Position numbers and translations under genes: made by a program. A stretch of DNA of 64,000 nt from Kineococcus sp. NBC_00420 (GTDB lineage Bacteria > Actinomycetota > Actinomycetes > Actinomycetales > Kineococcaceae): the NCBI RefSeq assembly GCF_036021035.1, contig NZ_CP107930.1:1240001-1304000 (forward strand). The letters are read 5' to 3'. The notes under the pieces were generated by a model, which was given only the letters and a program-made list of their open reading frames with translations, did no database searches and had not been told where the DNA came from. Position 1 is the first letter of the stretch; every line of letters starts with the position of its first letter. Shown piece after piece: positions 8,327 to 51,951 of this stretch.

Positions 8327-9102
8327 GGGGTTCCCGTCGGGAGGGCGGCGCCGAAGCGGGCGGCGACCTCGGGGTCGACGCGGGCGTCGGGGGCGCTGGA
8401 GCGCTTGATGGCGCTGCCGAGGATCGCGCCGTCCGCACCGGCCACGGTGGCGTCGATGGTGGCGAGGGAGACGCGCCCGCCGACGACGAAGGGGACGTCG
8501 GGGACGAGCGCGCGCAGCTCGGCGATGTCGGTGAGGGCGTCGGGCACGCCGCTGTCGCGGGTGACGACGAGGACGTCGGCGCGGCCGAAGTCCCGGGCCT
8601 CCCGGGCGGCCCACCCGGGGGTGGAGGCGAGGGCGAGGCTCGTGGCCTCGTGGACGTCGGCCCAGACCTCGACGTCGGCACCGATCCGCCGCCTCACCGC
8701 GGCGACGTCGTGCGCGCAGCCCTCGATCCAGCCGGTCGGGCCGATCGAGACCCCGGTGAGGACCTTCACCCGCACGAACCTGGCTCCGACGGCGTGGGCG
8801 ATCGCGACGGCGCTCGGTCCGTCGTTGTGGCCCACGACGACCCCGACAGGGAGGTATACCGAGTTGGTCACGGCGGCACCCACCACCGAGAGCGCGGCGA
8901 CGGTGGGAGCGTCGACCCGGACGGCCTGCGGCATGTCGCTGGCGTCCTGGACCATCACGTGGGTGAAGCCCGCCCGTTGCAGGACAAGGGCATCTTCGAC
9001 GGCGCGAGCGGCGATCTCGCGGACGGGAGTGCCGGCGTAGTTGACGGCACCGGGTAGCGGCGGCAGGTGCAAGACCCCGACGAGGCGGAACGAGGAGGAC
9101 AC
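8323..9102 (-). CDS. BtpA/SgcQ family protein, first gene of the ureide/sugar operon
   Basis: 259 residues of the BtpA family, a TIM-barrel-like family named from a cyanobacterial photosystem I biogenesis factor and represented by SgcQ in the E. coli sgc sugar operon. The biochemical role is not settled. The family start motif is FRLVGVLHLPPLPGA. Other conserved stretches are GFTHVMVQDASDMPQ, VVVGHNDGPSAVAIAHAVGARFVRV and the C-terminal VVGGRVSLATIDAT. I chose GTG 9102 because it matches family N-termini and has an extended -10-like TGGTATACC 9 bases upstream (leaderless). An in-frame ATG at 9144 with a weak AGGTG site would add 14 residues. Conservation in sugar operons suggests a sugar-handling enzyme. 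Confidence 0.85.
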   Translation of the reverse strand: MSSSFRLVGVLHLPPLPGAVNYAGTPVREIAARAVEDALVLQRAGFTHVMVQDASDMPQAVRVDAPTVAALSVVGAAVTNSVYLPVGVVVGHNDGPSAVAIAHAVGARFVRVKVLTGVSIGPTGWIEGCAHDVAAVRRRIGADVEVWADVHEATSLALASTPGWAAREARDFGRADVLVVTRDSGVPDALTDIAELRALVPDVPFVVGGRVSLATIDATVAGADGAILGSAIKRSSAPDARVDPEVAARFGAALPTGTP

Positions 9103-9111
9103 GAGCTGGAC

Positions 9112-9119
9112 GGTATACC
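9112..9119. promoter_or_regulatory. GGTATACC palindrome, putative -10/operator of the ureide/sugar operon
   Basis: An 8-bp perfect AT-rich palindrome within otherwise GC-rich DNA, directly before the GTG start of the BtpA gene. On the minus strand it reads TGGTATACC, which can serve as an extended -10 element. The same 8-mer recurs at 8853-8860 inside the BtpA gene. GGTATA repeats are typical of some GntR-family operators, but no GntR gene is in the window, so the factor is unknown. Confidence 0.4.
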
Positions 9120-9176
9120 AGGACGGGTTTCGTGGAGGTTTCATCTGTGTAACACCTGGAATTCCCGTTCAGCGGG

Positions 9177-9221
9177 TTGCCGTCAGGTGTGACAGTGCTG
9201 TTGTATCAGTGCTGTGACACC
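9177..9221 (+). promoter_or_regulatory. MarR gene promoter with overlapping inverted and direct repeats
   Basis: A -35 TTGCCG (9177-9182) and a -10 TTGTAT (9201-9206) are 18 bases apart. The -10 lies 7 bases before the GTG at 9214, so the mRNA is probably leaderless. Two repeat systems cover the promoter. One is the inverted pair GGTGTGACAG (9186-9195) and CTGTGACACC (9212-9221). The other is the direct repeat CAGTGCTGT at 9193-9201 and 9207-9215. This is the expected layout of an autoregulated MarR operator. Confidence 0.55.
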
Positions 9222-9687
9222 TTCCGACCCGACCCTGGAACCCTCCGGCCCGAAGCCCGTCCTGCGGCTGCTGGCCGCCATGGACGACGAGATCGCCCGG
9301 CTCTACGTCGAGCGCGGGATGGGGCACGTCCGGCCACGGTTCGTCCTCCCGCTGCTGCGGTTGCACCACGCCGGACCGATGACGGTGCGGGCCCTCGCCG
9401 GCGCCGTCGACGTGACCCAGTCGGCGATGAGCCAGACCGTCGCGGCGATGCGGACGGCAGGTCTGGTGCACTCCTCCCCCGGCGCCGACGCCCGGACCCG
9501 GACCGTCGACCTCACCGACGCGGCACGTTCCGTCGTGGACTTCCTGGACGCGGAGTGGCGGGCCACCGAGGCGGCCTGGGACGAACTGCAGGCCGAGATC
9601 GCGCACCCCCTGCAGCAGAGCGTCGACGAGATGCACGCGGCCCTGGCCCGCACCTCGTTCGGCGAGCGGATCGCCCGCCGGTTGTGA
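9214..9687 (+). CDS. MarR-family transcriptional regulator
   Basis: 157 residues with a winged helix-turn-helix of the MarR type. The recognition region is MTVRALAGAVDVTQSAMSQTVAAMRTAGLV (residues ~52-82), followed by a wing with the DARTRTVDLTDAAR motif typical of MarR repressors, and C-terminal dimerisation helices. GTG at 9214 follows a -10 element by 7 bases and has no ribosome binding site. An internal Met (AAMDDEIARLY) is a less likely start. It is followed after 7 bases by an exporter gene, so it probably controls that exporter and itself. The inducer is unknown. Confidence 0.88.
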   Translation: MTPSDPTLEPSGPKPVLRLLAAMDDEIARLYVERGMGHVRPRFVLPLLRLHHAGPMTVRALAGAVDVTQSAMSQTVAAMRTAGLVHSSPGADARTRTVDLTDAARSVVDFLDAEWRATEAAWDELQAEIAHPLQQSVDEMHAALARTSFGERIARRL

Positions 9688-26164: not shown

Positions 26165-27499
26165 GTGACCCAGGACGACCCGAGCAACCCACCCGAGGAC
26201 GAGCTGTGGGCAGCGCCCACCGCCGCCGGCCCGTTGGACGCCGTGGTGAGCGTGCCCGGATCGAAGTCCCTCACCAACCGCTACCTCGTGGTGGCGGCCC
26301 TGGCCGAACGCCCGTCCCTGCTGCGCGACCCCCTGGCCTCCCGCGACACCCTGCTGATGGCCGACGCGCTGCGCCTGCTCGGGACCGACGTGGTCGAGGG
26401 CGGTCACGACGTCGAGGGGGTGGACCCCCGCGACTGGGTGGTCCGGCCCGGCCCCGTCACGGGCGGGGCGCGCATCGATTGCGGCCTCGCCGGGACCGTC
26501 ATGCGCTTCCTGCCCCCCGTCGCCGCGCTGGCCTCCACCCCTGTGCACTTCGACGGGGACGAGCGCGCGCGGGAGCGTCCCATGGGCGCCGTCCTCGACG
26601 CGCTGCGTCAGCTCGGGGCGGTCGTGCAGGACGGCGGGAACGGACTGATGCCCTTCAGCGTCCAGGGCCCCGCGGGCGGTCTGCGCGGTGGCACGGTCCG
26701 CATCGACGCCTCCGCCTCCAGCCAGTTCGTCTCGGCGCTGCTGCTCATGGGCGCCCGGACCCGGGAGGGTCTCGAGGTCGTCCACGAGGGCCCGCCGATC
26801 CCCAGCCAGCCGCACGTCCGGATGACCGTCGAGGTGCTGCGCGACGTCGGGGTGGTCATCGACGACGCCACGCCGGGCCGCTGGTTCGTCGAGGCGGGGG
26901 AGATCAACGCCCTCGACGTGCAGGTCGAGCCGGACCTCTCCAACGCGGGGCCCTTCCTCGCCGCCGCGGCCGCCGTGGGCGGCCGGGTGCGGGTCCCGGG
27001 GTGGCCGCAGTCCACGACGCAGGCGGGTGACGTGCTGCGCGACGTGCTCGACCAGATGGGCGCCGAGGTCAACCTCGACCGCGAGGGCCTGGTCGTGGAG
27101 GGCACGGGCGAGCTGTACGGGATCGACCTGGACCTGCACGAGGCCGGTGAGCTCGCCCCCGTGATCACGGCGCTGGCCGCGCTGGCCTCCTCCCCCACCC
27201 GGCTGCGCGGGATCGCGCACCTGCGCGGGCACGAGACGGACCGGTTGAAGGCCCTGGTCACCGAGGTGAACGCCCTGGGCGGGCAGGCCGAGGAGACCCT
27301 CGACGGGCTACTGGTGCGCCCGCGTGCGCTGCACGGCGGGGTGTTCCGCTCCTACGCCGACCACCGGATGGCCACCGCCGGCGCCGTCCTGGGCCTGGCC
27401 GTCCCCGGTGTCCTCGTCGAGGACATCGCCACCACGCGCAAGACGCTGCCGGACTTCCCGGGCATGTGGGCGTCGATGCTCGCGGGAGCCCCAGCCTGA
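26165..27499 (+). CDS. aroA: 3-phosphoshikimate 1-carboxyvinyltransferase (EPSP synthase)
   Basis: 444 residues. It catalyses the sixth step of the shikimate pathway, joining PEP to shikimate-3-phosphate. Motifs are PGSKSLTNR (S3P/PEP binding, residues ~29-37), CGLAGTVMRFLPP, RPMGAVLDALRQLG, ASASSQFVSALLL, the catalytic-Asp region VEPDLSNAGPFLAAAA and the C-terminal TTRKTLPDFPGMW. GTG 26165 was chosen because GAGGAT lies 7 bases upstream (leaderless); ATG 26156 would add three residues. Its 3' end overlaps rsgA. The aroA-rsgA-hisN order is conserved in actinobacteria, here split by the kinase-GGDEF and VKOR genes. Confidence 0.95.
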   Translation: MTQDDPSNPPEDELWAAPTAAGPLDAVVSVPGSKSLTNRYLVVAALAERPSLLRDPLASRDTLLMADALRLLGTDVVEGGHDVEGVDPRDWVVRPGPVTGGARIDCGLAGTVMRFLPPVAALASTPVHFDGDERARERPMGAVLDALRQLGAVVQDGGNGLMPFSVQGPAGGLRGGTVRIDASASSQFVSALLLMGARTREGLEVVHEGPPIPSQPHVRMTVEVLRDVGVVIDDATPGRWFVEAGEINALDVQVEPDLSNAGPFLAAAAAVGGRVRVPGWPQSTTQAGDVLRDVLDQMGAEVNLDREGLVVEGTGELYGIDLDLHEAGELAPVITALAALASSPTRLRGIAHLRGHETDRLKALVTEVNALGGQAEETLDGLLVRPRALHGGVFRSYADHRMATAGAVLGLAVPGVLVEDIATTRKTLPDFPGMWASMLAGAPA

Positions 27500-28572
27500 G
27501 CCCCCGCCAGCGGGGTCCGCTGTCGCGCTACGACGAGGACGACGTCCGGGTCAGGCCCAACCGGAAGGGCACCCGGCCCCGCACCAAGGACCGTCCGGCG
27601 CACGCCGACGCCGTCGACGGGTTCGTCGTCGTGGTCGACCGCGGCCGCTCGCACGTCCTCGTCGGTGAGGGGACCGGGCAGGAACGTCTCGTCACGGCGA
27701 TGCGGGCCCGCGAGCTCGGTCGTCAGGGCGTCGTCGTCGGCGACCGCGTCGGCCTCGTCGGTGACGTCTCCGGGACCTCCGACACCCTCGCCCGGATCGT
27801 GCGCATCGACGAGCGGCGCACCGCCCTGCGCCGTTCCGCCGACGACACCGACCCCATCGAGCGGGTCGTCGTCGCCAACGCCGACCAGCTGGTCGTCGTG
27901 ACGGCCGTGGCGAACCCGGAGCCGCGCTCGCGCCTGGTCGACCGCTGCCTCGTGGCGGCCTACGTCTCGGGGATGCAGCCGCTGCTGTGCCTGACCAAGG
28001 GGGACCTCCGCCCGGCCCAGGAGGTCCTGGAGACGTGGGCCCCGCTGGGTCTCGACGCCGTGGTCACCTCCCGCGGGCCGGACGGCCTGCTCGGTCTCGA
28101 CGCGGTCCGTGAGCGCCTCGACGGGCGGATCAGCGTCCTCGTCGGCCACTCCGGGGTCGGCAAGTCGACGCTGGTCAACGCGCTGGTCCCCGACGCCGAC
28201 CGCGCGACGGGGCACGTCAACGTGGTCACCGGTCGCGGCCGGCACACCTCGACGTCGATGGCGGCGCTCACGCTGCCCGCCGGGGGCTGGGTCATCGACA
28301 CCCCGGGCATCCGAGGGTTCGGCCTGGCCCACGTGGACCCGGAGGCGGTGCTGCGCGCGTTCCCGGACCTGCTGCCCGGCGAGGAAGACTGTCCCCGTGG
28401 CTGCTCCCACGACGAGCCGGGGTGCGCCCTCGACGCGTGGGTGGCGTCGGGCCGGGCCGGGGCGGCCGGGCCGGCCCGGCTGGCCTCGTTCCGGAGGTTG
28501 CTCGTGGCCCGTCGACCGGCCCGTGAGGACGCGATCGGAGCCGACCAGCCCCGCGAGGCCGACGACGGGTGA
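27466..28572 (+). CDS. rsgA: Ribosome small-subunit-dependent GTPase A
   Basis: Up to 368 residues. The order of GTPase motifs is circularly permuted, the hallmark of RsgA/YjeQ: G4 LCLTKGDL precedes G1 GHSGVGKSTLVNAL (~residues 223-236) and G3 DTPGIRGFGL. The OB-fold is N-terminal and the zinc knuckle is C-terminal (CPRGCSHDEPGCALDA). It assists late 30S maturation. GTG 27466 lies 34 bases inside aroA. The conserved part begins LSRYDEDDVRVRPNRKGTRP, so a start at the CTG overlapping the aroA stop (27496) is also possible. Translation is probably coupled to aroA. Confidence 0.92.
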   Translation: MGVDARGSPSLSPRQRGPLSRYDEDDVRVRPNRKGTRPRTKDRPAHADAVDGFVVVVDRGRSHVLVGEGTGQERLVTAMRARELGRQGVVVGDRVGLVGDVSGTSDTLARIVRIDERRTALRRSADDTDPIERVVVANADQLVVVTAVANPEPRSRLVDRCLVAAYVSGMQPLLCLTKGDLRPAQEVLETWAPLGLDAVVTSRGPDGLLGLDAVRERLDGRISVLVGHSGVGKSTLVNALVPDADRATGHVNVVTGRGRHTSTSMAALTLPAGGWVIDTPGIRGFGLAHVDPEAVLRAFPDLLPGEEDCPRGCSHDEPGCALDAWVASGRAGAAGPARLASFRRLLVARRPAREDAIGADQPREADDG

Positions 28573-28668
28573 CGGGTGCGGTCGACCGGGATGGTGACCA
28601 CTGCCAGTTCACACGTGATGCCCTAGTGTGACGGTCGTTCCCGGTCGGAGATGAGGTGACGGCTGCTC

Positions 28669-31600
28669 ATGGGAGACACCAGCTCGATCCGGCCCGCGGG
28701 TCTCGAGGCCACCGGACCCGCCCCCCACGTCCCCGGCCCGGCACCGGCTCCCGGCCCCACCATCCCCCCGGATCCCCTCCGGACCTGGACCGTCCTGCGG
28801 GAACTGGGACGCGGCGCGGGCTCGGTGGTGCACCTGGCGGCGCGGGCCGACGTCCGCGAACCCGGCGGGCGCGAGTACGCGATCAAACGCCAGCGGCACG
28901 TCACCCTGCCCCCGCTCGACCAGGTCGAGGCCGACCGGACGCTGCGCCGCGAGGCCGCCCTGCTGGCCAGCGTGCACCACCCCGGGCTCACCCGCGTGCA
29001 CGCCGTCGAGCAGGTCGAGGGTCGCCTCGCCCTCGTCATGGACGCCCACGACGGGACGTCGCTGGCCGACCTGCTGCACACCCCGCCCACCCCCGGCCGC
29101 CCCGGACGCGGCGGTGACGCCGTCCCCGCGAGCACCGCGCCGCTGTCGCTGACCACGTCGCTGCGTCTGGCCGTCGACGTCTGCGACGCGCTGCACGCCC
29201 TGCACCGCAACGGACTCGTGCACCGGGACGTGAAACCCGCGAACGTCCTCGTCACCCGGGCCGGGCGCGCGGTCCTCGTCGACCTGGGCGTGGCGCACCT
29301 CGAGAACTCCGCGCCCGTCCGTCCCGGGGTGCACCCCCCCGGCGAACGGGCCGACGGTCCCGAACGCCGTCGCGAGGAGGACCGCGGGGGCGCCGACGCG
29401 GCCTCCGAGACCGAGGTCGGTGCGCTGCACTACCGCTCCCCCGAGCAGGCCGGGGTCGTCCGCAGCCCCGTGGACCACCGCTCCGACCTCTACTCCGTGG
29501 GCGCGCTGCTGCTGGAGTGCCTCACCGGCCGCACCCCGGTGGAGGGCAGCGATCCGACGCAGGTCCGTCGCCGGCTGGGCCGGCTGCGCCCGCTCGACCC
29601 CGCGGTCCTCGGCCCCGACGTCCCGCGCGCCCTCGGGGTGCTGCTGCGCCGGCTGCTCGCCCTGGACCCGGAGGACCGGCCCGCGAGCGCCGCCGCCGTC
29701 GCCGACGAGCTCAGCCGGATCGCGGCCGGCACCGCTCCCGACGTCGCCCTCGGGCGACGCAGCTGGGTGAGCCCCGCCGACGGGCCGTTGCTGGAGCGCG
29801 GTCAGCAGACCGCGGTGCTGGACGCGGCCTGGGACACCGCGCGCGCCGGCTCCGGCGGGGTCGTGGTCGTCCGCGGCGCGGCGGGGTCGGGTCGCAGTTC
29901 CCTCGTCGAGCACCTGCACCGGCGGGCGGGCGGACAGGGCGCGGCGGCGGTGGTGCTGGACTCCACGACCTCGCCCGCCTCCCCGTTGAGCGCGTTGCGC
30001 CGGGCCATGACCGCGGGTGGCCTCTCGACGCCACCTCGGGACGGGGCGGTCTCCGGCGACGGCGACGAGCAACGGCCGCAGGCGCTGGCCGAGGAGCTCC
30101 TCCAGCACGCCGCCCGGACGGGGCCGCTGCTGGTCGTCCTGGACGACACCGAGCACGCCGACGCCTCGACGCTGGCCGTGCTGCGCTGGGTGGCCGGCGA
30201 GTGCGCCGACCTCCCGCTGCTGCTGGTCCTCGTCGACCGGCCCCGGGAGTCCGGTGGGCTGGACCCGGCGCTGGACTCCTCCCGGACCCTCGTGATCGAC
30301 GTCCCGGCCCTCTCCGACGCCGCCGCCCGCGCCGTCGTGCGCCGTCGGCTGCCCGGGGCGGTGCTCACCGACTCCGTCGCCTCGGCGCTCGTCTCCCGGG
30401 CCGCAGGGAACCCCGGGGCCCTGCTCGCGCTCCTCACCGCCCTCCTCGACGACGGCGGTCTGTTGCCCGACTGGGGCCACTGGCGGCTGGAACAAGCTGC
30501 GCTGGAGGCGGTCCCGGTGGCCCCCGGGCTGCTGGCGGCCCTGCTGCGCCGCGTCGAGGAACTCCCCGCCGGGCACCGCAACGTGCTGCGGCTGGCCGCC
30601 GCGTGCGGGCGTTCCGTCGACGACCACCTCGTGCTGCGAGCCGCCTCGCCCCAGCTCCCGGCCGAGGCGGTCCGCGCCGGCCTCGCCGCCGGCGTCGCGG
30701 TCCGGCTGCTGCGCCCGCGGCCGCACGGTCGCCACGAGTTCCTGCACCAGCAGGTGGTCGACGCCGTCCTGGACGGGCTCGACGAGGTCGAGCGTCGTGG
30801 GCTGCACGCGCGCCTGGCCCGCGTCCTGCGCGTCGACACCCGGGCCGGGACGGAGTGCACCGACCGCGAGGCCGTCTTCGCGTGCGCCCACCAGCACCTG
30901 CGCGCCGGGGACGCCGTCGCCCCGGCCGACGTCGTCGCGGCGTGCGCGGTGGCCGGGGTCAGCGCCGCCCGCCACTTCGCACCCGAGGCCGCCGTCGGGT
31001 TGCTGCAGCAGGCCGTCGAGACCGCGGACGGGGCGGGTCTGCCGCTCGACCCCCGGCTGCGCCGACTGCTCGCGAGCTGCCTGGCCCGCACCGGTCGCCA
31101 CGCGTGGGCCCACGACCACCTCGACCACCTCCTGCGCACCACGACCGACCCCCTCGGGAAGGCCGTCGGCCTCGGGGAGATCGCCACCCTGCACCGGCAC
31201 GAACGGGCGCCCGGAGGACCCGCGCGGGCCCTGGACGCGGCCCGGGAGGGTCTGGCCCAGCTCGGTTCCTCCCGGCCCGGCACCCGGGCCGCCTGGTGGG
31301 TCTTCACCGTCGTCACCGTGGCCGGGTTCGTGGCGACCCTGCTCGACCCGCGCCGTCGACGGGCCAGCCGGCACCGCCTGGACTCCCCCCGCGAGGTCGA
31401 GGAGAACACCGCCGAGGCCGCCCACGCCGTGCTGCTGCGCGAGGCCGCGGCCACCGACCTGGACCGCGGGTACCCGCTGACCGCCCTGCCCACCGCGCTG
31501 GCCTCGATCGCGCACGCCCTGCGGGGCCGGCGCGCCGACCTCGCCCGGGACGGGCGACGCACCCTGGCCGCGGCGCTGCGCCGGCTCCTGACGGGGCGGG

Positions 31601-34176
31601 CGACGTTGCTGCCGGTCCGCCTCCCCGGGACCTCCTCCCTCGTCGGACGTCCCCTGACTCCCCCCTCCCCCCGCCGCGGCGAGACAGAACCCTCGGTGCA
31701 GGCCGGGATCCGCCTGGCCGAGGGGCTGGACCGGTTGCGTTCCGGTGGGACGTGGCGCGAGGTCGCCCAGGTCCTCGAGGACGACGGGCAGTGGCTCGAC
31801 CTGCCCGAGTACGTGGCCGGGACCCGGGCCGTCGTCCTCGAGCGCCTCGCCGCGGGGCACCTCGCCGCCGCCCGCAGCTGGCACGACCGGGCCCTGCGCC
31901 GGGTGCCGGAGGGGGCCCCGGTCCCCGTCGACCTCGACCTGCTCCGGGTCGCGCTGCTGGGGGCCTGCGGTCGGCCCGGGGAGGCCGGGGAGCTGTTGAC
32001 GAGGGTGCGGGGCGGGCTGTCGGCGACGTCGTCCCCCGAGCACCAGCTCGCGGTGCACCTCGCGACGGTGACGTGGCTGGTGCAGCAGCTCGACCTGTCC
32101 GAACGCTTCGACGAGGTCGCCCGGCGTTCCACCGCGCTCCTGCACCGCTCCCCGCTGCGGCGTTCAGTGGAGGCCCGCTGGACCGCCGACCTCGTGGTCC
32201 GCGGGCGGCTGGCCCAGCTCGCCGCGGCGACCGACGCCGGGGACACCGTCCGGGTGCGCGAGCGGGAACAGGAACTGCGGGAAGCGCTGGGTCACCCCGC
32301 CCACCGCGCCGGCGGGGCGGTGCAGGAGGCCCAGTTCGACGTCGTCCGCGCCGCCGCGTGGCACCGCCTGGGCCGTAGCCACCGCGCGAAGGTGTTGCGG
32401 CGCAGGGCGGAACGTTGCGCGGCCCGGTTGGACGCCCCGCTCGTGCAGCACCACCTGATGCTGCTGCGGGCCGAGGACCTCGAGGCGAGCGGCGCCTTCG
32501 AGGACGCCGAGCGGCTGCACTGGCTGGCCACGGCCCTGGCCGACCGGCACGGCTGGGCGACCCTGGTGCAGCGCGGGCGCGCCGACCTGAACGCGACCCA
32601 GCCCGCGGGGAGCGGGACCTGGGGGCCGGCGGCCGGTCGTCGCCGGCGGCTGCTCAGCGCGATGCGCGACGTCGGCGACGCGGCCCAGGTCCTGGACCCG
32701 CAGGACGTCGTGCGCCTCGCCCTGGACCAGGCCTGCGGGGTGCTCGGCGCCGACCGCGCGGTCCTCGCCGTCCTCGACGGCGAGGACGAGCTCGTCGTCT
32801 TCGCCGGGCGCACCCGTTCCGGCACCGACCTGGCGCTGGGCACCCCCCTGGACCCGGCCGCGGTCCGGGCCGCGCGGACCGGGCGGCCCGTGGTCCGCGG
32901 GGTGCTGGACGCGCAGGAACAGCGCAGCGCGCACACCCCCGAGGACGTCGCCCGCAGCGTCGTGGCCGTCCCGCTGCTCGTCCGCGGTCGCCGGACGGGG
33001 GTGCTGGCGGCGGTCAGCACCGTCGCCCAGGGCGCCTTCGGCCGGGGGGACGTCGAACTGCTGCAGCTCATCGCGGGACAGGTCGCGGCTTCGCTGGAGA
33101 CGGCCCGGGCGGCCCGCCTGGAGATCGAGGTGCACGGCGCGCAACGCGAGCGCGACCTCGCCGAGGCCGTGCGCCGGCTCACCGAGGAGGTCTCGGGCAG
33201 CCTCGACCTGCCCACCGTGCGCCGTCGGCTGCTGCGCTCCGCGCTGACGGAGCTGCGGGCGGGCCGGGCGGCCCTGGTGCCCGTCGCGGTCCGCTCCACC
33301 GTCGACGTGGACCCGCCCGCGCTGGTGACGGCCGCGGGCGGTACGGCCGTGCGGGAGGTCCCGTGGAGCCGGGACCGGCAGGGCGACCGCGAGTCCGCGC
33401 CACTGCTGGAACGCCCGCTCGCCGCCCACGGCGGCGACCCGCTGCCCGCCCGGCTGCGGGGTCTGCTGGACCTCGGGGGTGACGGCGGGACCGGGGAGGA
33501 GCGGTGGCTGGTCGTCCCCCTGAAGGACCGGACCGGCCTGGTGGCCGAGGCGCTGGTGCTCGTCGGGGGTCCCGAGGGGCCCGCCGCCCGGCTGCACGTC
33601 GCGGAGGCGCTCGCCGCCCCCGCGGCCATCGGCCTGGAGAACGCGCGGCTCTTCGCCCAGGTCGAGCACCTGGCCCGCACCGACTCCCTCACGGGTCTGG
33701 CCACGCGTGGTCACCTGCTGCGCCTGGGTGAGCAGCGCGTGCGGCGGGCCACCCCGGGCCGGGCCGTGGCGGTCCTGATGGTCGACGTCGACCACTTCAA
33801 GTCCGTCAACGACACCTTCGGCCACGCCGCGGGCGACGAGGTCCTCACGGCCGTCGCGCGGCGGCTGCAGCACGAGGCCCGGGAGAGCGACGTCCTCGGT
33901 CGCTACGGCGGGGAGGAGTTCGCCCTCGTCGTCACCAGTCCCGCCCCCGAGGAGGGGTCCGGTCCGCTGGAGGCCCGCGAGGTCGCCGAGCGGCTGCGCC
34001 TGGCGGTGCGCCGCAGCCCCGTGCTGGTGCGGGGCGAGCAGCTGCAGGTCACGGTCAGCGTGGGGGTGGCGCTGCTGCGCGAGGGCGAGCAGCTCTCCGA
34101 CGTCCTGGCCCGCGCCGACAGCGCCCTCTACCGCGCCAAGGCAGCCGGCCGCGACGCTGTCGTCGAAGCCCTCTGA
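28669..34176 (+). CDS. Ser/Thr kinase - AAA ATPase - helical repeat - GAF - diguanylate cyclase megaprotein
   Basis: 1835 residues in one intact frame. Residues ~40-360 are a Hanks-type kinase: Lys73 in the VAIK position (YAIKRQ), HRDVKPAN at 185-192, DLG at 205-207 instead of DFG, and LYSVGALLLECLTGRTP. Residues ~390-650 are a P-loop ATPase (GAAGSGRSS 403-411, Walker B LLVVLDD ~488-493). Residues ~650-1330 are a helical, TPR-like scaffold. Residues ~1345-1490 and ~1510-1680 are GAF domains. Residues ~1680-1835 are GGDEF with DSLTGLATRG, FKSVNDTFGH, active site GGEEF (1747-1751) and the inhibitory RxxD site RESD (1738-1741). It should make c-di-GMP and be product-inhibited. No transmembrane helix is certain apart from a hydrophobic stretch near 880. 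An ATG at 28669 is the first good start. A similar kinase-AAA-GAF layout with a histidine kinase output is known from cyanobacteria; here the output is a cyclase. Confidence 0.92.
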   Translation: MGDTSSIRPAGLEATGPAPHVPGPAPAPGPTIPPDPLRTWTVLRELGRGAGSVVHLAARADVREPGGREYAIKRQRHVTLPPLDQVEADRTLRREAALLASVHHPGLTRVHAVEQVEGRLALVMDAHDGTSLADLLHTPPTPGRPGRGGDAVPASTAPLSLTTSLRLAVDVCDALHALHRNGLVHRDVKPANVLVTRAGRAVLVDLGVAHLENSAPVRPGVHPPGERADGPERRREEDRGGADAASETEVGALHYRSPEQAGVVRSPVDHRSDLYSVGALLLECLTGRTPVEGSDPTQVRRRLGRLRPLDPAVLGPDVPRALGVLLRRLLALDPEDRPASAAAVADELSRIAAGTAPDVALGRRSWVSPADGPLLERGQQTAVLDAAWDTARAGSGGVVVVRGAAGSGRSSLVEHLHRRAGGQGAAAVVLDSTTSPASPLSALRRAMTAGGLSTPPRDGAVSGDGDEQRPQALAEELLQHAARTGPLLVVLDDTEHADASTLAVLRWVAGECADLPLLLVLVDRPRESGGLDPALDSSRTLVIDVPALSDAAARAVVRRRLPGAVLTDSVASALVSRAAGNPGALLALLTALLDDGGLLPDWGHWRLEQAALEAVPVAPGLLAALLRRVEELPAGHRNVLRLAAACGRSVDDHLVLRAASPQLPAEAVRAGLAAGVAVRLLRPRPHGRHEFLHQQVVDAVLDGLDEVERRGLHARLARVLRVDTRAGTECTDREAVFACAHQHLRAGDAVAPADVVAACAVAGVSAARHFAPEAAVGLLQQAVETADGAGLPLDPRLRRLLASCLARTGRHAWAHDHLDHLLRTTTDPLGKAVGLGEIATLHRHERAPGGPARALDAAREGLAQLGSSRPGTRAAWWVFTVVTVAGFVATLLDPRRRRASRHRLDSPREVEENTAEAAHAVLLREAAATDLDRGYPLTALPTALASIAHALRGRRADLARDGRRTLAAALRRLLTGRATLLPVRLPGTSSLVGRPLTPPSPRRGETEPSVQAGIRLAEGLDRLRSGGTWREVAQVLEDDGQWLDLPEYVAGTRAVVLERLAAGHLAAARSWHDRALRRVPEGAPVPVDLDLLRVALLGACGRPGEAGELLTRVRGGLSATSSPEHQLAVHLATVTWLVQQLDLSERFDEVARRSTALLHRSPLRRSVEARWTADLVVRGRLAQLAAATDAGDTVRVREREQELREALGHPAHRAGGAVQEAQFDVVRAAAWHRLGRSHRAKVLRRRAERCAARLDAPLVQHHLMLLRAEDLEASGAFEDAERLHWLATALADRHGWATLVQRGRADLNATQPAGSGTWGPAAGRRRRLLSAMRDVGDAAQVLDPQDVVRLALDQACGVLGADRAVLAVLDGEDELVVFAGRTRSGTDLALGTPLDPAAVRAARTGRPVVRGVLDAQEQRSAHTPEDVARSVVAVPLLVRGRRTGVLAAVSTVAQGAFGRGDVELLQLIAGQVAASLETARAARLEIEVHGAQRERDLAEAVRRLTEEVSGSLDLPTVRRRLLRSALTELRAGRAALVPVAVRSTVDVDPPALVTAAGGTAVREVPWSRDRQGDRESAPLLERPLAAHGGDPLPARLRGLLDLGGDGGTGEERWLVVPLKDRTGLVAEALVLVGGPEGPAARLHVAEALAAPAAIGLENARLFAQVEHLARTDSLTGLATRGHLLRLGEQRVRRATPGRAVAVLMVDVDHFKSVNDTFGHAAGDEVLTAVARRLQHEARESDVLGRYGGEEFALVVTSPAPEEGSGPLEAREVAERLRLAVRRSPVLVRGEQLQVTVSVGVALLREGEQLSDVLARADSALYRAKAAGRDAVVEAL

Positions 34177-34197: not shown

Positions 34198-34896
34198 TCA
34201 GACCAGGCTGGACCAGTAGGACCAGAACTTGACCGCGATCATCACGATCACGGCGGCGTAGCTCAGCACGATGAGCAGTCCGCGGAAGTCGACGACCGTG
34301 CGGGCCAGGCCGTGCAGGGCCCGCGGGACGGGGACGAGACCGCGGTCGAGGCCGTCGGCGACGTGGACCCAGAAGGTCGGCACGACCACGCTCCACACGA
34401 CCATGCAGTAGGGGCAGAGGGCGTGGATGGAGTAGAGGCTCTGGGCGATCAGCCAGCCGACGAAGACCGTGCCGAGGGTGATCCCGACGAGGTAGCCGCG
34501 TTCCACCCACCGCGGCAGCGCCGTCCGCGACAGGACGAGCAGGCCGATCAGGAGCGAGAGGGAGAAGGCGGCGATCCCGATGAGCGGGTTGGGGAAGCCG
34601 AAGGCCGCCGCCTGGTCGGTGGCCATGACGCTGCCGCAGGACAGGATCGGGCTGATGTTGCAGCTGGGGGCGTAGTTCGGGTCCTCGGCGAGCTTGAACC
34701 GCTCGATCGTCAGCGTGAAGGCCGCGACGAAGCCGAGGATCCCGCCGACGGTCAGCAGCAGACCGCGGGCGCGCGGGGAGACCGGCAACGCCGACAGGTG
34801 CCCCTCGGGGGCGGCGTCGTGGTGCGTGTGGTCAACGTCGTCGTCGTCGAACCCGTCGAAGGTCTCGTCGTCGACCTGGTGCGTCGTGTCGGCCAT
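34198..34896 (-). CDS. Vitamin K epoxide reductase (VKOR)-family membrane protein
   Basis: 232 residues, with a His/Asp-rich soluble N-terminus and then five hydrophobic segments. The VKOR catalytic pairs are visible: the loop cysteines in CNISPILSCGSVM and the CxxC CPYC in SIHALCPYCMVVW. Bacterial VKORs reoxidise DsbA-type thiol oxidases with quinone, forming disulphides in exported proteins. No dsbA homologue is adjacent. ATG 34896 has a strong GAGGTGAGGA ribosome binding site. The His/Asp segment DDDDVDHTHHD might bind metal but is not a known family feature. Confidence 0.93.
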   Translation of the reverse strand: MADTTHQVDDETFDGFDDDDVDHTHHDAAPEGHLSALPVSPRARGLLLTVGGILGFVAAFTLTIERFKLAEDPNYAPSCNISPILSCGSVMATDQAAAFGFPNPLIGIAAFSLSLLIGLLVLSRTALPRWVERGYLVGITLGTVFVGWLIAQSLYSIHALCPYCMVVWSVVVPTFWVHVADGLDRGLVPVPRALHGLARTVVDFRGLLIVLSYAAVIVMIAVKFWSYWSSLV

Positions 34897-35053
34897 CTGC
34901 GTCCTCACCTCGCGCCTTCCGGGGCAGTGCCCACCCTGTTGCCCACCCTGTCCCAGCATCCTCGACAGCGCTGGACGTCACCTGAACGTCGCGGCCCCGC
35001 CGTGGTCACCGGGTCGAACCTCCCACGTCCACGGTCCCACGGGCCCCGGGCGG

Positions 35054-35066: not shown

Positions 35067-35897
35067 GTGTCCGCCCCCACGCAGTCCCCCGCCGCGCACC
35101 AGCGTCCGCGCTACGACGACGACCTGCGGCTCGCGCACGTCATCGCCGACCAGGTCGACGGGGTGACCACCGACCGCTTCAAGGCGCTGGACCTGAAGGT
35201 CGAGACGAAGCCGGACCTGACGCCGGTGAGCGACGCGGACCGCGGCGCGGAGGAGCTCATCCGTTCCCAGCTGCGCCGGACCCGGCCGCGGGACGCGGTG
35301 CTCGGCGAGGAGTTCGGGCTGGTCGGGCACGGGGCCCGGCAGTGGGTCGTGGACCCCATCGACGGGACGAAGAACTTCGTCCGCGGCGTGCCGGTGTGGG
35401 CGACGCTCATCGCCCTCGTCGACGACGGCGTCCCCGTCGTCGGGCTGGTCTCCGCACCCGCGCTGGGGCGGCGCTGGTGGGCGGCGACCGGCTCGGGGGC
35501 CTGGACCGGGCGCAGCCTCTCCGCGGCGACGCGGATGCACGTGAGCTCGGTGTCGAACCTCTCGGACGCCTCCTTCGCTTACTCCTCGCTCGAGGGGTGG
35601 GAGAGCCGCGGTGCCCTCGACGGGTTCCTGGGCCTGACCCGCTCGGTGTGGCGGACCCGCGGGTTCGGCGACTTCTGGTCCTACATGCTGCTGGCCGAGG
35701 GCGCGGTCGACATCGCCGCCGAACCGGAACTCGCGCTGCACGACATGGCCGCCCTCGTCCCGATCGTCACCGAGGCCGGGGGCCGGTTCACCTCCCGCGC
35801 CGGCGTCGACGGCCCCTTCGGCGGTGACGCCGTCGTCACCAACGGGCTGCTGCACGCGGACGCGCTGCGCTTCCTCGGGACCCCCGCCCAGCCGTGA
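35067..35897 (+). CDS. hisN: Histidinol-phosphatase / inositol monophosphatase-family protein
   Basis: 276 residues of the IMPase fold. Metal-binding motifs are VLGEEFG (Glu), [14 protein letters not shown] (DPIDGT signature, residues ~95-108) and the C-terminal [19 protein letters not shown]. In actinobacteria the gene next to aroA-rsgA of this type is the histidinol-phosphate phosphatase HisN; a general inositol phosphatase cannot be excluded. The metal-ligand Asp in the last motif is the D of LHDMA. GTG 35067 is leaderless by its -10. The stop overlaps the next start (GTGA). Confidence 0.85.
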
Positions 35898-36682: not shown

Positions 36683-37555
36683 TCACCCGGGCAGGACGAG
36701 GACCGGCACCGGCGAGTGCCGCAGGATCTTCGTGGCCCGCGAGCCCAGGAACACCCGGGCCACCGGACCCTTGGGCCGCGAGCCCACCACGAGGAGTTCC
36801 CCGGGTTCCCAGTCGACGGCGTCGACGGCCTCCCGCCACCCTCGCCCGGCCCCCACGACGGCGGTGACGTCGGGCGGCAGGGCTCCCTTGCGGCGCAGCG
36901 CCTCGACGCTGCGGTGGGCCTGTTCGAGCCAGGCGTCGAAGACCTCGTCGTCGCCGTCGACGCCGAACCCCGAGCTCCACCCCGTCCGGCTGCGCACCGC
37001 GAGGGTCAGCACCCGCAGCCCCGTCCCGACCCGTTCGGCGAACTGCTGGGCGCGGGCCACGACGAGTTCGTCCTCCCCCGCCGCGGCGCAGGTGACCCGC
37101 TGCAGCGCGAGCGACCCGCCGCGGTAGCCGCGCGGGGCGAGGGCCACCGAGAGCGGTGAGGAGTGCAGCAGCCGGCCCGCGGTGGACCCCACCGTCACCT
37201 GCCCGAGGTGACCGTCGGGCGAGGAGCCGAGCACCAGGACGGCCGCGCCGATGTCGGCCGCGAGGTCGATGAGGCTCGCGGAGACGGACCGTCCCGCGCG
37301 GACGTGGAACTGCACGGTGGCCCCGGGGGCGATCTGGTCGAGGTAGGTCCGGGCCGACCTCTCCGCCTGCGCCGCGAGGGATCCGGACCACTCGACGAAC
37401 TGCGCGTCGGCCTTCGCCGTCGAGGGGGTGTCCCAGGGCTTGGGCAGGACCGTCGCGACGGCCAGCGGGACGCCGAGCGCACGTGCCAGTTGCCCACCGA
37501 GGTTCAGGGTGGCGCGGCCGCCCTTCTCGGGCAGGTAGGCGACGAGGACGGTCAC
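36683..37555 (-). CDS. Tandem universal stress protein (UspA-like)
   Basis: 290 residues with two USP domains. Each ends in the ATP-binding G-2x-G-9x-G(S/T) motif: GSSPDGHLGQVTVGSTAG in domain 1 and GSRPKGPVARVFLGSRATK in domain 2. The first strand is VTVLVAYLP. Tandem, ATP-binding USPs are common in actinobacteria, often in the dormancy or oxidative stress response. GTG 37555 is the only in-frame start near the first strand. It lacks a clear ribosome binding site, and a TACCCT hexamer 48 bases upstream could be its -10. The convergent CPBP gene ends 3 bases from its stop. Confidence 0.9.
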   Translation of the reverse strand: MTVLVAYLPEKGGRATLNLGGQLARALGVPLAVATVLPKPWDTPSTAKADAQFVEWSGSLAAQAERSARTYLDQIAPGATVQFHVRAGRSVSASLIDLAADIGAAVLVLGSSPDGHLGQVTVGSTAGRLLHSSPLSVALAPRGYRGGSLALQRVTCAAAGEDELVVARAQQFAERVGTGLRVLTLAVRSRTGWSSGFGVDGDDEVFDAWLEQAHRSVEALRRKGALPPDVTAVVGAGRGWREAVDAVDWEPGELLVVGSRPKGPVARVFLGSRATKILRHSPVPVLVLPG

Positions 37556-37729
37556 CCGTGGCTGCGCGGGTCGGCCGGCGCGGGACGGTGCTGCACGCGA
37601 CCAGGGTAGCGATCGGCGAACTTCACAGCACGGACACGCTTTCGGCCGCTCCGACGTGCCCGGCTCACCTACCGTGGTGGGTCCGCAGGACATCGACGTC
37701 CGTACTCGATCCCTGAGGAGCCGCACCAC

Positions 37730-38809
37730 GTGAACATCAGCACCTCCGTCTGGCTGACCCTGGCCGTCGCCGTCGTGGCCGCCGTCGTGGCCGCCGTCGT
37801 CGGCGAGCTCGTCGCCCTCGGTGTCCGCCGCCTCGGCCGCAACCACGAGATCCTCGCCACCCTCGCCCAGCGGGGACGGCGACCCCTCGCGGGGTTCATG
37901 GCCACCCTGGCCGCGCAGTGGGCGCTGAAGATCTCCTCCCAGACCGCCGACTGGCAGGGTCCGACGTTCTTCGTCCTGACCCTGCTGACCGTCGCCTTCG
38001 GGGCCTGGCTGGCGGTGGTCGCCGCGAACGTCGTCCAGGACGTCCTGCTGCTGCGCTACCGGATCGACGTCAAGGACAACCGCCGCCAGCGCCAGCGCCG
38101 CACCCAGGTGCAGCTGGTCAAGCGCGTCGCGGTCGCCCTCATCATCGTCGTCGCCGTCGCCTCGATGCTGCTGACCATCCCCGGTGCGCGCGGCGCGGGC
38201 GCCAGCGTGCTCGCCTCCGCCGGCTTGCTCTCGGTGGTCGCCGGCCTGGCCGCGCAGACCTCGCTGGCGAACATCTTCGCCGGGTTGCAGATCGCCTTCA
38301 CCGACGGGATCCGCGTCGACGACGTCGTCGTCGTCGAGGAGGAGTGGGGCAACATCGAGGACATCACCCTCACCTACGTCGTGGTGAAGCTGTGGGACCA
38401 GCGGCGCCTCATCCTGCCCTCCACGTACTTCACGACGACGCCGTTCGCGAACTGGACGCGGAACTCCTCCGACATCATCGGCAGCGTCGACTTCGACGTC
38501 GACTGGACCGTCCCCTTCGACGAGGTCCGTGCCCACGCCGAGGCCTTCGTGACGGCCCACCCGCTCTGGAACGGCCAGACCTACGCGCTGCAGGTGACCG
38601 ACGCGCGGAACTCGTTCGTCTCCTTCCGGGTGCTGGTCAGCGCGAACTCGGGCGGGGAACTCTTCGACCTGCGCTGCGCGGTGCGCGAGGAACTCGTCGC
38701 CCTCCTGCGCCGCGAGCACCCGGGCGCCCTGCCCAAGGTCCGGATGGACACCCCGCGGGCCGTCCACATCCCGCAGCAGGAGGGTCACCGCACCTCACGG
38801 ACGGTGTGA
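37730..38809 (+). CDS. Small-conductance mechanosensitive channel (MscS family)
   Basis: 359 residues. Four N-terminal helices precede the pore helix segment ASAGLLSVVAGLAAQTSLANIFAGLQIAFTDGIRVDDVV, the MscS TM3 plus beta-domain start, with the usual small-residue Gly/Ala packing. The following WGNIEDITLTYVVVKLWDQRRLILPSTYF is also family-typical. The channel releases solutes on hypo-osmotic shock. GTG 37730 has GAGGAG upstream. A TACCGT hexamer at 37670-37675 is a possible -10 with a ~50-base leader. Confidence 0.92.
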   Translation: MNISTSVWLTLAVAVVAAVVAAVVGELVALGVRRLGRNHEILATLAQRGRRPLAGFMATLAAQWALKISSQTADWQGPTFFVLTLLTVAFGAWLAVVAANVVQDVLLLRYRIDVKDNRRQRQRRTQVQLVKRVAVALIIVVAVASMLLTIPGARGAGASVLASAGLLSVVAGLAAQTSLANIFAGLQIAFTDGIRVDDVVVVEEEWGNIEDITLTYVVVKLWDQRRLILPSTYFTTTPFANWTRNSSDIIGSVDFDVDWTVPFDEVRAHAEAFVTAHPLWNGQTYALQVTDARNSFVSFRVLVSANSGGELFDLRCAVREELVALLRREHPGALPKVRMDTPRAVHIPQQEGHRTSRTV

Positions 38810-51517: not shown

Positions 51518-51594
51518 TGGTAGCGGGGACAGGATTTGAACCTGCGACCTCTGGGTTATGAGCCCAGCGAGCTACCGAGCTGCTCCACCCCGCG
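51518..51594 (-). tRNA. Initiator tRNA-fMet (CAT), copy 1
   Basis: 77 nt with encoded CCA. The anticodon loop is CTCATAA between stems CTGGG and CCCAG, so positions 29-31/39-41 are the three consecutive G-C pairs of initiators. The acceptor begins CGCGGGG and ends CCCCGCT-A-CCA, so position 1 (C) and 72 (T) do not pair, the other initiator hallmark (E. coli has C-A). T arm GGTTCAAAT. Identical in sequence to copies 2 and 3. Confidence 0.97.
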
Positions 51595-51703: not shown

Positions 51704-51780
51704 TGGTAGCGGGGACAGGATTTGAACCTGCGACCTCTGGGTTATGAGCCCAGCGAGCTACCGAGCTGCTCCACCCCGCG
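51704..51780 (-). tRNA. Initiator tRNA-fMet (CAT), copy 2
   Basis: 77 nt, sequence identical to copies 1 and 3, including encoded CCA, GGG/CCC anticodon stem and unpaired C1-T72. Confidence 0.97.
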
Positions 51781-51874: not shown

Positions 51875-51951
51875 TGGTAGCGGGGACAGGATTTGAACCT
51901 GCGACCTCTGGGTTATGAGCCCAGCGAGCTACCGAGCTGCTCCACCCCGCG
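51875..51951 (-). tRNA. Initiator tRNA-fMet (CAT), copy 3
   Basis: 77 nt, identical to copies 1 and 2. It is the first of the array in the direction of transcription and has its own promoter and terminator. Confidence 0.97.

Follow-up and report, generated by a model that had tools for sequence, protein, structure and literature searches.

A Kineococcus protein with a Ser/Thr kinase, an ATPase-like STAND domain, two GAF domains and a predicted diguanylate cyclase, and its relatives in the Actinomycetota

Gene content of the locus

A 64,000-nucleotide stretch of the genome of Kineococcus sp. NBC_00420 (contig NZ_CP107930.1), called the window below, contains one long gene for a protein of 1835 residues (Table 1). 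Its open reading frame has no internal stop, and the ATG start is supported by an initial MGD in the same position in four of the other five full-length proteins from the genus. These five orthologues share 58–74% identity with the protein over the compared pieces, and an additional one is split across two contig ends (G009). The orthologues, together with dN/dS ratios (NG86, six genus pairs) between 0.06 and 0.52 for each domain, indicate that this is not a chance frame. The protein is real and conserved, and is a good test object.

The gene is located between rsgA and an inositol monophosphatase family gene, presumably hisN, as the first-pass annotation named it. This position had been correctly given by the first-pass annotation, made from the window sequence; a divergent VKOR-family gene also lies in between, as identified with Pfam. 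Further neighbours in the Pfam scan are a sigma factor gene and aroA. A scan for promoter and terminator consensus sequences found none. A long antisense frame (28609–32145) covers part of the gene and is presumably what high GC content commonly gives. Elsewhere in the window, a 701-residue frame on the reverse strand (36683–38788) contains two universal stress protein stretches and has matches near hisN at six other loci of the genus. Three tRNA-Met (CAT) genes, identical across all 77 bases, stand in a row on the reverse strand (51518–51594, 51704–51780 and 51875–51951); presumably they encode initiator tRNA, as suggested by their C1 start.

The source genome, a single contig of 5.43 Mb, has a large c-di-GMP network. 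A genome scan gave 86 matches, made up of the gene described here, three kinase matches and 82 further GGDEF regions. The EAL search gave 61 matches, 60 of them over the cut-off, some being pieces of one gene.

Table 1. Features of the kinase-GGDEF gene and its immediate neighbours, in window coordinates
Feature	Position	Strand	Evidence
rsgA, upstream neighbour	27466..28572	+	Pfam RsgA_GTPase 2e-46
Whole gene, kinase-STAND-scaffold-GAF-GAF-GGDEF protein, 1835 aa	28669..34176	+	ORF and Pfam
Hanks-type Ser/Thr kinase domain, residues 41-345	28789..29703	+	Pfam Pkinase 1.5e-27
AAA_16/STAND NTPase domain, residues 374-520	29788..30228	+	Pfam AAA_16 1.7e-15
Walker A GAAGSGRSS, Lys replaced by Arg409	29875..29901	+	alignment
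Scaffold, ~726 residues, about 600-1325	30466..32643	+	alignable across family; weak TPR matches
GAF domain 1, residues 1342-1477	32692..33099	+	Pfam GAF_2 1.5e-13
GAF domain 2, divergent, about residues 1491-1665	33139..33663	+	hhalign, PDB GAF matches
GGDEF diguanylate cyclase domain, residues 1670-1829	33676..34155	+	Pfam 8.9e-41
RxxD (RESD), residues 1738-1741, 5 residues before GGEEF	33880..33891	+	alignment
GGEEF active-site motif, residues 1747-1751	33907..33921	+	identical in 34/34 GGDEF-bearing members
VKOR-family gene, downstream neighbour	34198..34959	-	Pfam VKOR 4.4e-40
Inositol monophosphatase family gene	35067..35897	+	Pfam Inositol_P 2.1e-44

Domain organization and conserved motifs

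The domains have been characterized by Pfam, in which Pkinase, AAA_16, GAF_2 and GGDEF were all called above the curated cut-off, and by a family alignment of 35 proteins. The latter comprises 34 full-length members with GGDEF, drawn from five actinobacterial groups and including the window protein, and one member without GGDEF (L112). The 34 proteins carry all domains in one frame, share the order of domains and motifs, and can be aligned end to end; their domain trees are largely, though not wholly, congruent.

The kinase domain has the residues characteristic of the Hanks type: (i) Lys73; (ii) Glu95; (iii) the catalytic loop HRDVKPAN at residues 185–192, with its Asn; (iv) Asp205, situated in a DLG and not a DFG motif. 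All of them align across the relatives, and the best solved chains are those of PknB (3f69, 2.4e-26). The Lys, Glu, HxD Asp, Asn and DxG are jointly kept in 33 of the 34 GGDEF-bearing members. The sole exception (L108, from the genome G008) reads HGDVEPSN at the position of HRDVKPAN and DPD at that of DLG, and its activation region (kinase at about 8853–9650) is shortened with part missing, in a frame that is otherwise open over 1855 residues; judged by these motifs, it is a predicted natural kinase-defective variant. Smaller departures are a Thr in place of the catalytic-loop Lys in L113 and L146, and HQD in the ten f36 members; the latter keep the Walker A Lys, in contrast to the Kineococcus members with their Walker A Arg and mostly DLG. 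L112 reads HRDIRPGT and GFG, having lost the DFG Asp and the catalytic-loop Asn, and on these motifs is probably a pseudokinase. Directly upstream of L112, on the same strand, a separate frame of 576 residues (L153:14575–16302, reverse) ends in a GGEEF domain.

The AAA_16 domain has a Walker B motif (VVLDD, residues 489–493) and, instead of the canonical Walker A GxxxxGK[ST], the sequence GAAGSGRS. Arginine occupies the Walker A position in nine of the 35 aligned proteins (six of the genus, two of f35, one of f67) and lysine in 26, so that canonical hydrolysis is no constant of the family. For the domain in the window protein, “ATPase-like STAND domain” is therefore the more accurate name. Three distinct groups of the family show the replacement of Lys by Arg (L134, L135 and L184, besides the six members from the genus).

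The scaffold gives weak TPR signals, with a best E-value of 0.039 in the window member and 4.6e-4 among 16 members, and is probably a TPR-like superhelix. It includes a hydrophobic stretch of 19 residues (874–892, window 31288–31344), which ranks as the most hydrophobic part of the protein in four of the six genus members and in five of the 16 from family f15, and is among the three most hydrophobic parts in one of ten f36 members. A membrane contact at this stretch is possible.

Two GAF domains precede the output domain, the first called by Pfam and the second, which had no Pfam call, recognized by profile comparison. A profile of GAF 2 from 15 family members matched GAF 1 in hhalign (probability 95.7, E 9.1e-9) as well as solved GAF domains (2lb5, 8e-7; 2w3d, 2.6e-4). 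The second GAF ends in a conserved linker, ENARLFAQVEHLA. The GGDEF domain matches solved cyclases including PleD and WspR, and GG[D/E]EF together with the metal-binding Asp residues is present in the predicted cyclase. The RxxD motif, which constitutes the inhibitory I-site, is kept in 32 of the 34 GGDEF-bearing members, the departures being L146 (RGEE) and L184 (GPGD).

The domain reading of the first-pass annotation thus stands for the kinase, the scaffold, the two GAF domains, GGEEF and RxxD, and the residues that it had named (K73, HRDVKPAN, D205, GGEEF, RxxD) are present and line up with those of the relatives; its “P-loop ATPase” becomes uncertain with Arg409 in place of the Walker A Lys.

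Distribution of the architecture

The architecture was sought with profiles in genomes of the class, order and phylum. No more than two candidate places were scored in each genome, hence all these counts are lower bounds. The scaffold profile (A1, 1e-20) matched at least 15 of 394 class genomes, the window's own included. The full architecture is present in 11 of the 14 others, at 12 loci (G368 has two). A contig end cuts the locus of G257, where scaffold, GAF and GGDEF are present, and the loci of the two last genomes (L147, L148) have neither kinase nor GGDEF by BLAST at 1e-3. A broader profile (A5, 1e-30) matched at least 15 of 396 order genomes, namely seven of the genus and eight of family f15. 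Each f15 genome gave two matches, which may be an undercount, and a GGDEF domain is present at 15 of these 16 loci.

In the phylum at least 129 of 396 genomes were matched at 1e-15. Among the matches listed, besides that of the window itself, only the one in G643 spans nearly the whole profile, and this genome encodes the full architecture in a frame of 1899 residues. The others are partial and cover mostly the start of the profile, probably common to other STAND proteins. Ten phylum loci were read, G643 included, and six more contain a kinase along with a portion of the scaffold. Four of these six were scanned: the C-terminus is a histidine kinase in two (L185, L186) and a class III cyclase in the other two (L187, L189). 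The tail of L186 consists of a PAS-histidine kinase followed by a receiver and an Hpt domain. Histidine-kinase versions, which the first-pass annotation had assigned to other phyla, are thus encoded in the same phylum as well.

Several candidates did not share the architecture. Among 80 listed loci, mostly ordinary GGDEF genes, none gave a match to the central part of the protein. Three of them (L022 and L044 from Myxococcales, and L053) have a kinase-like frame of at least 300 residues at 1e-5, without GGDEF. The Thiocapsa loci L009, L011 and L012, whose GGDEF domains cluster near the family, gave no kinase match, and their cyclase follows a metallo-beta-lactamase-like domain.

Presence and history in the genus

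When the central part of the protein was used as query, the gene was found in six of ten other Kineococcus genomes, thus in seven of 11 with the window genome, and was not found in the single genome of the sister genus. In all seven carriers rsgA is directly upstream. VKOR and hisN follow downstream in six; in G009 they are on the second contig, which also carries the rest of the split gene. In G005, alone among the carriers read, an insert of about 7.7 kb lies between the gene and VKOR-hisN on one contig (L105:1–3889 and G005:C3 496231–503888); the frames read in it include an ArsR-type regulator, an E1-E2 ATPase and a periplasmic binding protein. The empty site, with rsgA next to VKOR and hisN, is found in G002, G007, G010 and the sister-genus genome G011, K. 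radiotolerans being among the three of 11 genus genomes that have no gene at this site; a contig of G007 matches the K. radiotolerans plasmid record NC_009806.1 without a difference over 5001 bases. G003 was assigned to neither type: no rsgA match was found there at 1e-40, and its contig stops 166 bases beyond VKOR. Given the empty sites and the insert in G005, the spot between rsgA and VKOR is variable.

A tree of the flanking genes (aroA, rsgA, hisN and VKOR, with hisN and VKOR missing for G005) places the non-carrier G007 beside the window genome and all three empty sites among carriers; G004 and G008 are sister species. For the seven carriers the gene tree has the same topology, the trees being compared by eye. 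Since the empty sites are placed among carriers and the two trees agree, loss fits better than recent gain, and the simplest account is a gene present in the ancestor of the genus and lost about three times. The “lineage-specific gain” of the first-pass annotation, understood as a recent event, is not supported for a gene that follows rsgA in seven of 11 genomes and agrees with its flanks. No plasmid match was obtained at 1e-30 by tblastn with the entire protein.

Joint evolution of the domains

Separate trees were built for the kinase, for AAA together with the scaffold, for the GAF domains and for GGDEF, with 34 members each. Pairwise they share 20 to 27 of 31 splits. The kinase and GGDEF trees have 22 of 31 in common, whereas 500 relabellings gave 0.22 on average and never more than 3. 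Strongly supported conflicts concern five of 29 splits between scaffold and GGDEF, and at most one in each other pair. These largely congruent trees, together with the complete kinase residues in 33 and GGEEF in all 34 members, indicate that the domains travel together.

The members from f15 are monophyletic in none of the four trees. In a tree with a background of 106 GGDEF domains, seven of them from the source genome, the 34 family domains fall within a clade of 37 that contains three Thiocapsa outsiders, at a support of only 0.24; a single origin of the fusion, or of its cyclase part, is not well supported by these sequences. The GGDEF dN/dS is 0.37 for the pair G004–G008 against 0.15 for G004–G005, and this elevation suggests that the whole gene of G008 may be relaxing.

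Functional interpretation

The most probable reading of the protein, at about 0.6, is a GAF/STAND-gated, product-inhibited diguanylate cyclase, whose N-terminal Ser/Thr kinase would tune the cyclase or act in parallel with it. The STAND and TPR-like part would serve as an assembly and binding platform, with nucleotide hydrolysis perhaps weak or lost in Kineococcus given Arg409. The GAF pair may bind a ligand or mediate dimerisation, and the conserved linker would relay its state to the GGDEF pair, which is predicted to make c-di-GMP until the product limits synthesis at the RxxD site. The kinase may autophosphorylate the chain and thereby tune the cyclase, or may phosphorylate partners in parallel from the same sensor. 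Modulation is favoured over obligatory control by the kinase since one species, G008, keeps a GGEEF cyclase with degraded kinase motifs; the predicted kinase defect of this copy speaks against an obligatory kinase. The cellular effect of the protein could be masked by the approximately 82 other GGDEF regions of the genome.

A less probable, still serious alternative is a STAND/GAF core that passes one signal to two independent outputs, the cyclase and a kinase whose targets are other proteins. This is suggested by the same kinase-AAA_16 front occurring with histidine kinase or class III cyclase tails (L185, L186, L187 and L189), but such a kinase could equally control the phosphorelay or cyclase tail to which it is joined.

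It is rather unlikely that autophosphorylation of the kinase is the main switch of the cyclase, coupling Ser/Thr phosphorylation to c-di-GMP in one molecule. Extended to the whole family, with the STAND domain in Kineococcus binding nucleotide and not hydrolysing it, this proposal seems similarly doubtful. The joint conservation of kinase and cyclase residues and the congruence of the domain trees agree with it, as does L112, where the only aligned protein without GGDEF has also lost the DFG Asp and the Asn of the catalytic loop. The co-loss in L112 is, however, a single case, the retention of GGEEF in G008 points the other way, and kinase and cyclase are separated by about 1000 residues of AAA_16 and scaffold plus two GAF domains. 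If true, an autophosphorylation-gated family would link eukaryotic-like phosphorylation to c-di-GMP within a single molecule.

An inactive relic accumulating degenerate domains might be seen in the Walker A Arg, the DLG motif, the three empty sites and the degraded kinase of G008; the intact frame in six full-length members of the genus, the invariant GGEEF and the dN/dS values make it very improbable. Least probable of all is an immune-type, antiphage STAND sensor with cyclase output: a STAND-type NTPase with a TPR-like scaffold, PADLOC matches to kinase models (PD-T4-6 and mad6 among them), and a variable site would suit it, but the best 25 of 33 PADLOC matches lie within residues 14–402, thus in the kinase and the part immediately downstream, and none of the Pfam-scanned neighbours is a defence gene by name.

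Comparison with known systems

A protein of similar design was described in 2005, in a survey that reported an 1826-residue protein of Clostridium thermocellum ATCC 27405 with a kinase, six TPRs and GGDEF, for which the authors suggested a role in c-di-GMP production (PMC1262709). Like the window protein it combines an N-terminal kinase, helical repeats and a C-terminal GGDEF at near-equal length; unlike it, no AAA or GAF domain is mentioned in the portion of the description available (PMC1262709). The same design in related bacteria and this similar one in print mean that the protein is not a new kind of system, and the rarity implied by the first-pass annotation is not supported, given the recurrence of the architecture in Actinomycetota. 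The annotation had named an architecture already common and characterised as grounds for refuting it. Recurrence has been found, and no biochemistry on a kinase-GGDEF fusion was recognised among the open-licence papers listed.

There are partial similarities to other fusions. HstK (Alr2258) of Anabaena also has a front-end kinase and GAF, as far as the consulted portions of its accounts describe it, whereas its output is a histidine kinase and that of the window protein a predicted cyclase (PMC2176072, PMC1262709). The TOMM system kinase/cyclase fusion (TIGR03903) is a kinase-cyclase by name and shows local similarity across the kinase; the window protein scores 126.5 bits, below the cut-off of 705.75 bits. 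Pkn1 of Myxococcus xanthus joins a Ser/Thr kinase and a c-di-GMP-related PilZ domain in one chain, but according to the part of the source consulted this PilZ is a receiver-type domain, not a cyclase, and is predicted not to bind c-di-GMP (PMC8316039).

The family offers a set of natural variants: kinases with complete motifs, a degraded kinase in G008, a copy that lacks the cyclase (L112) and relatives ending in other output domains. To our knowledge, there are few single molecules in which cross-talk between Ser/Thr kinases and c-di-GMP can be tested. The contrast between the proteins of the sister species G004 and G008 bears on how important kinase activity is for the cyclase.
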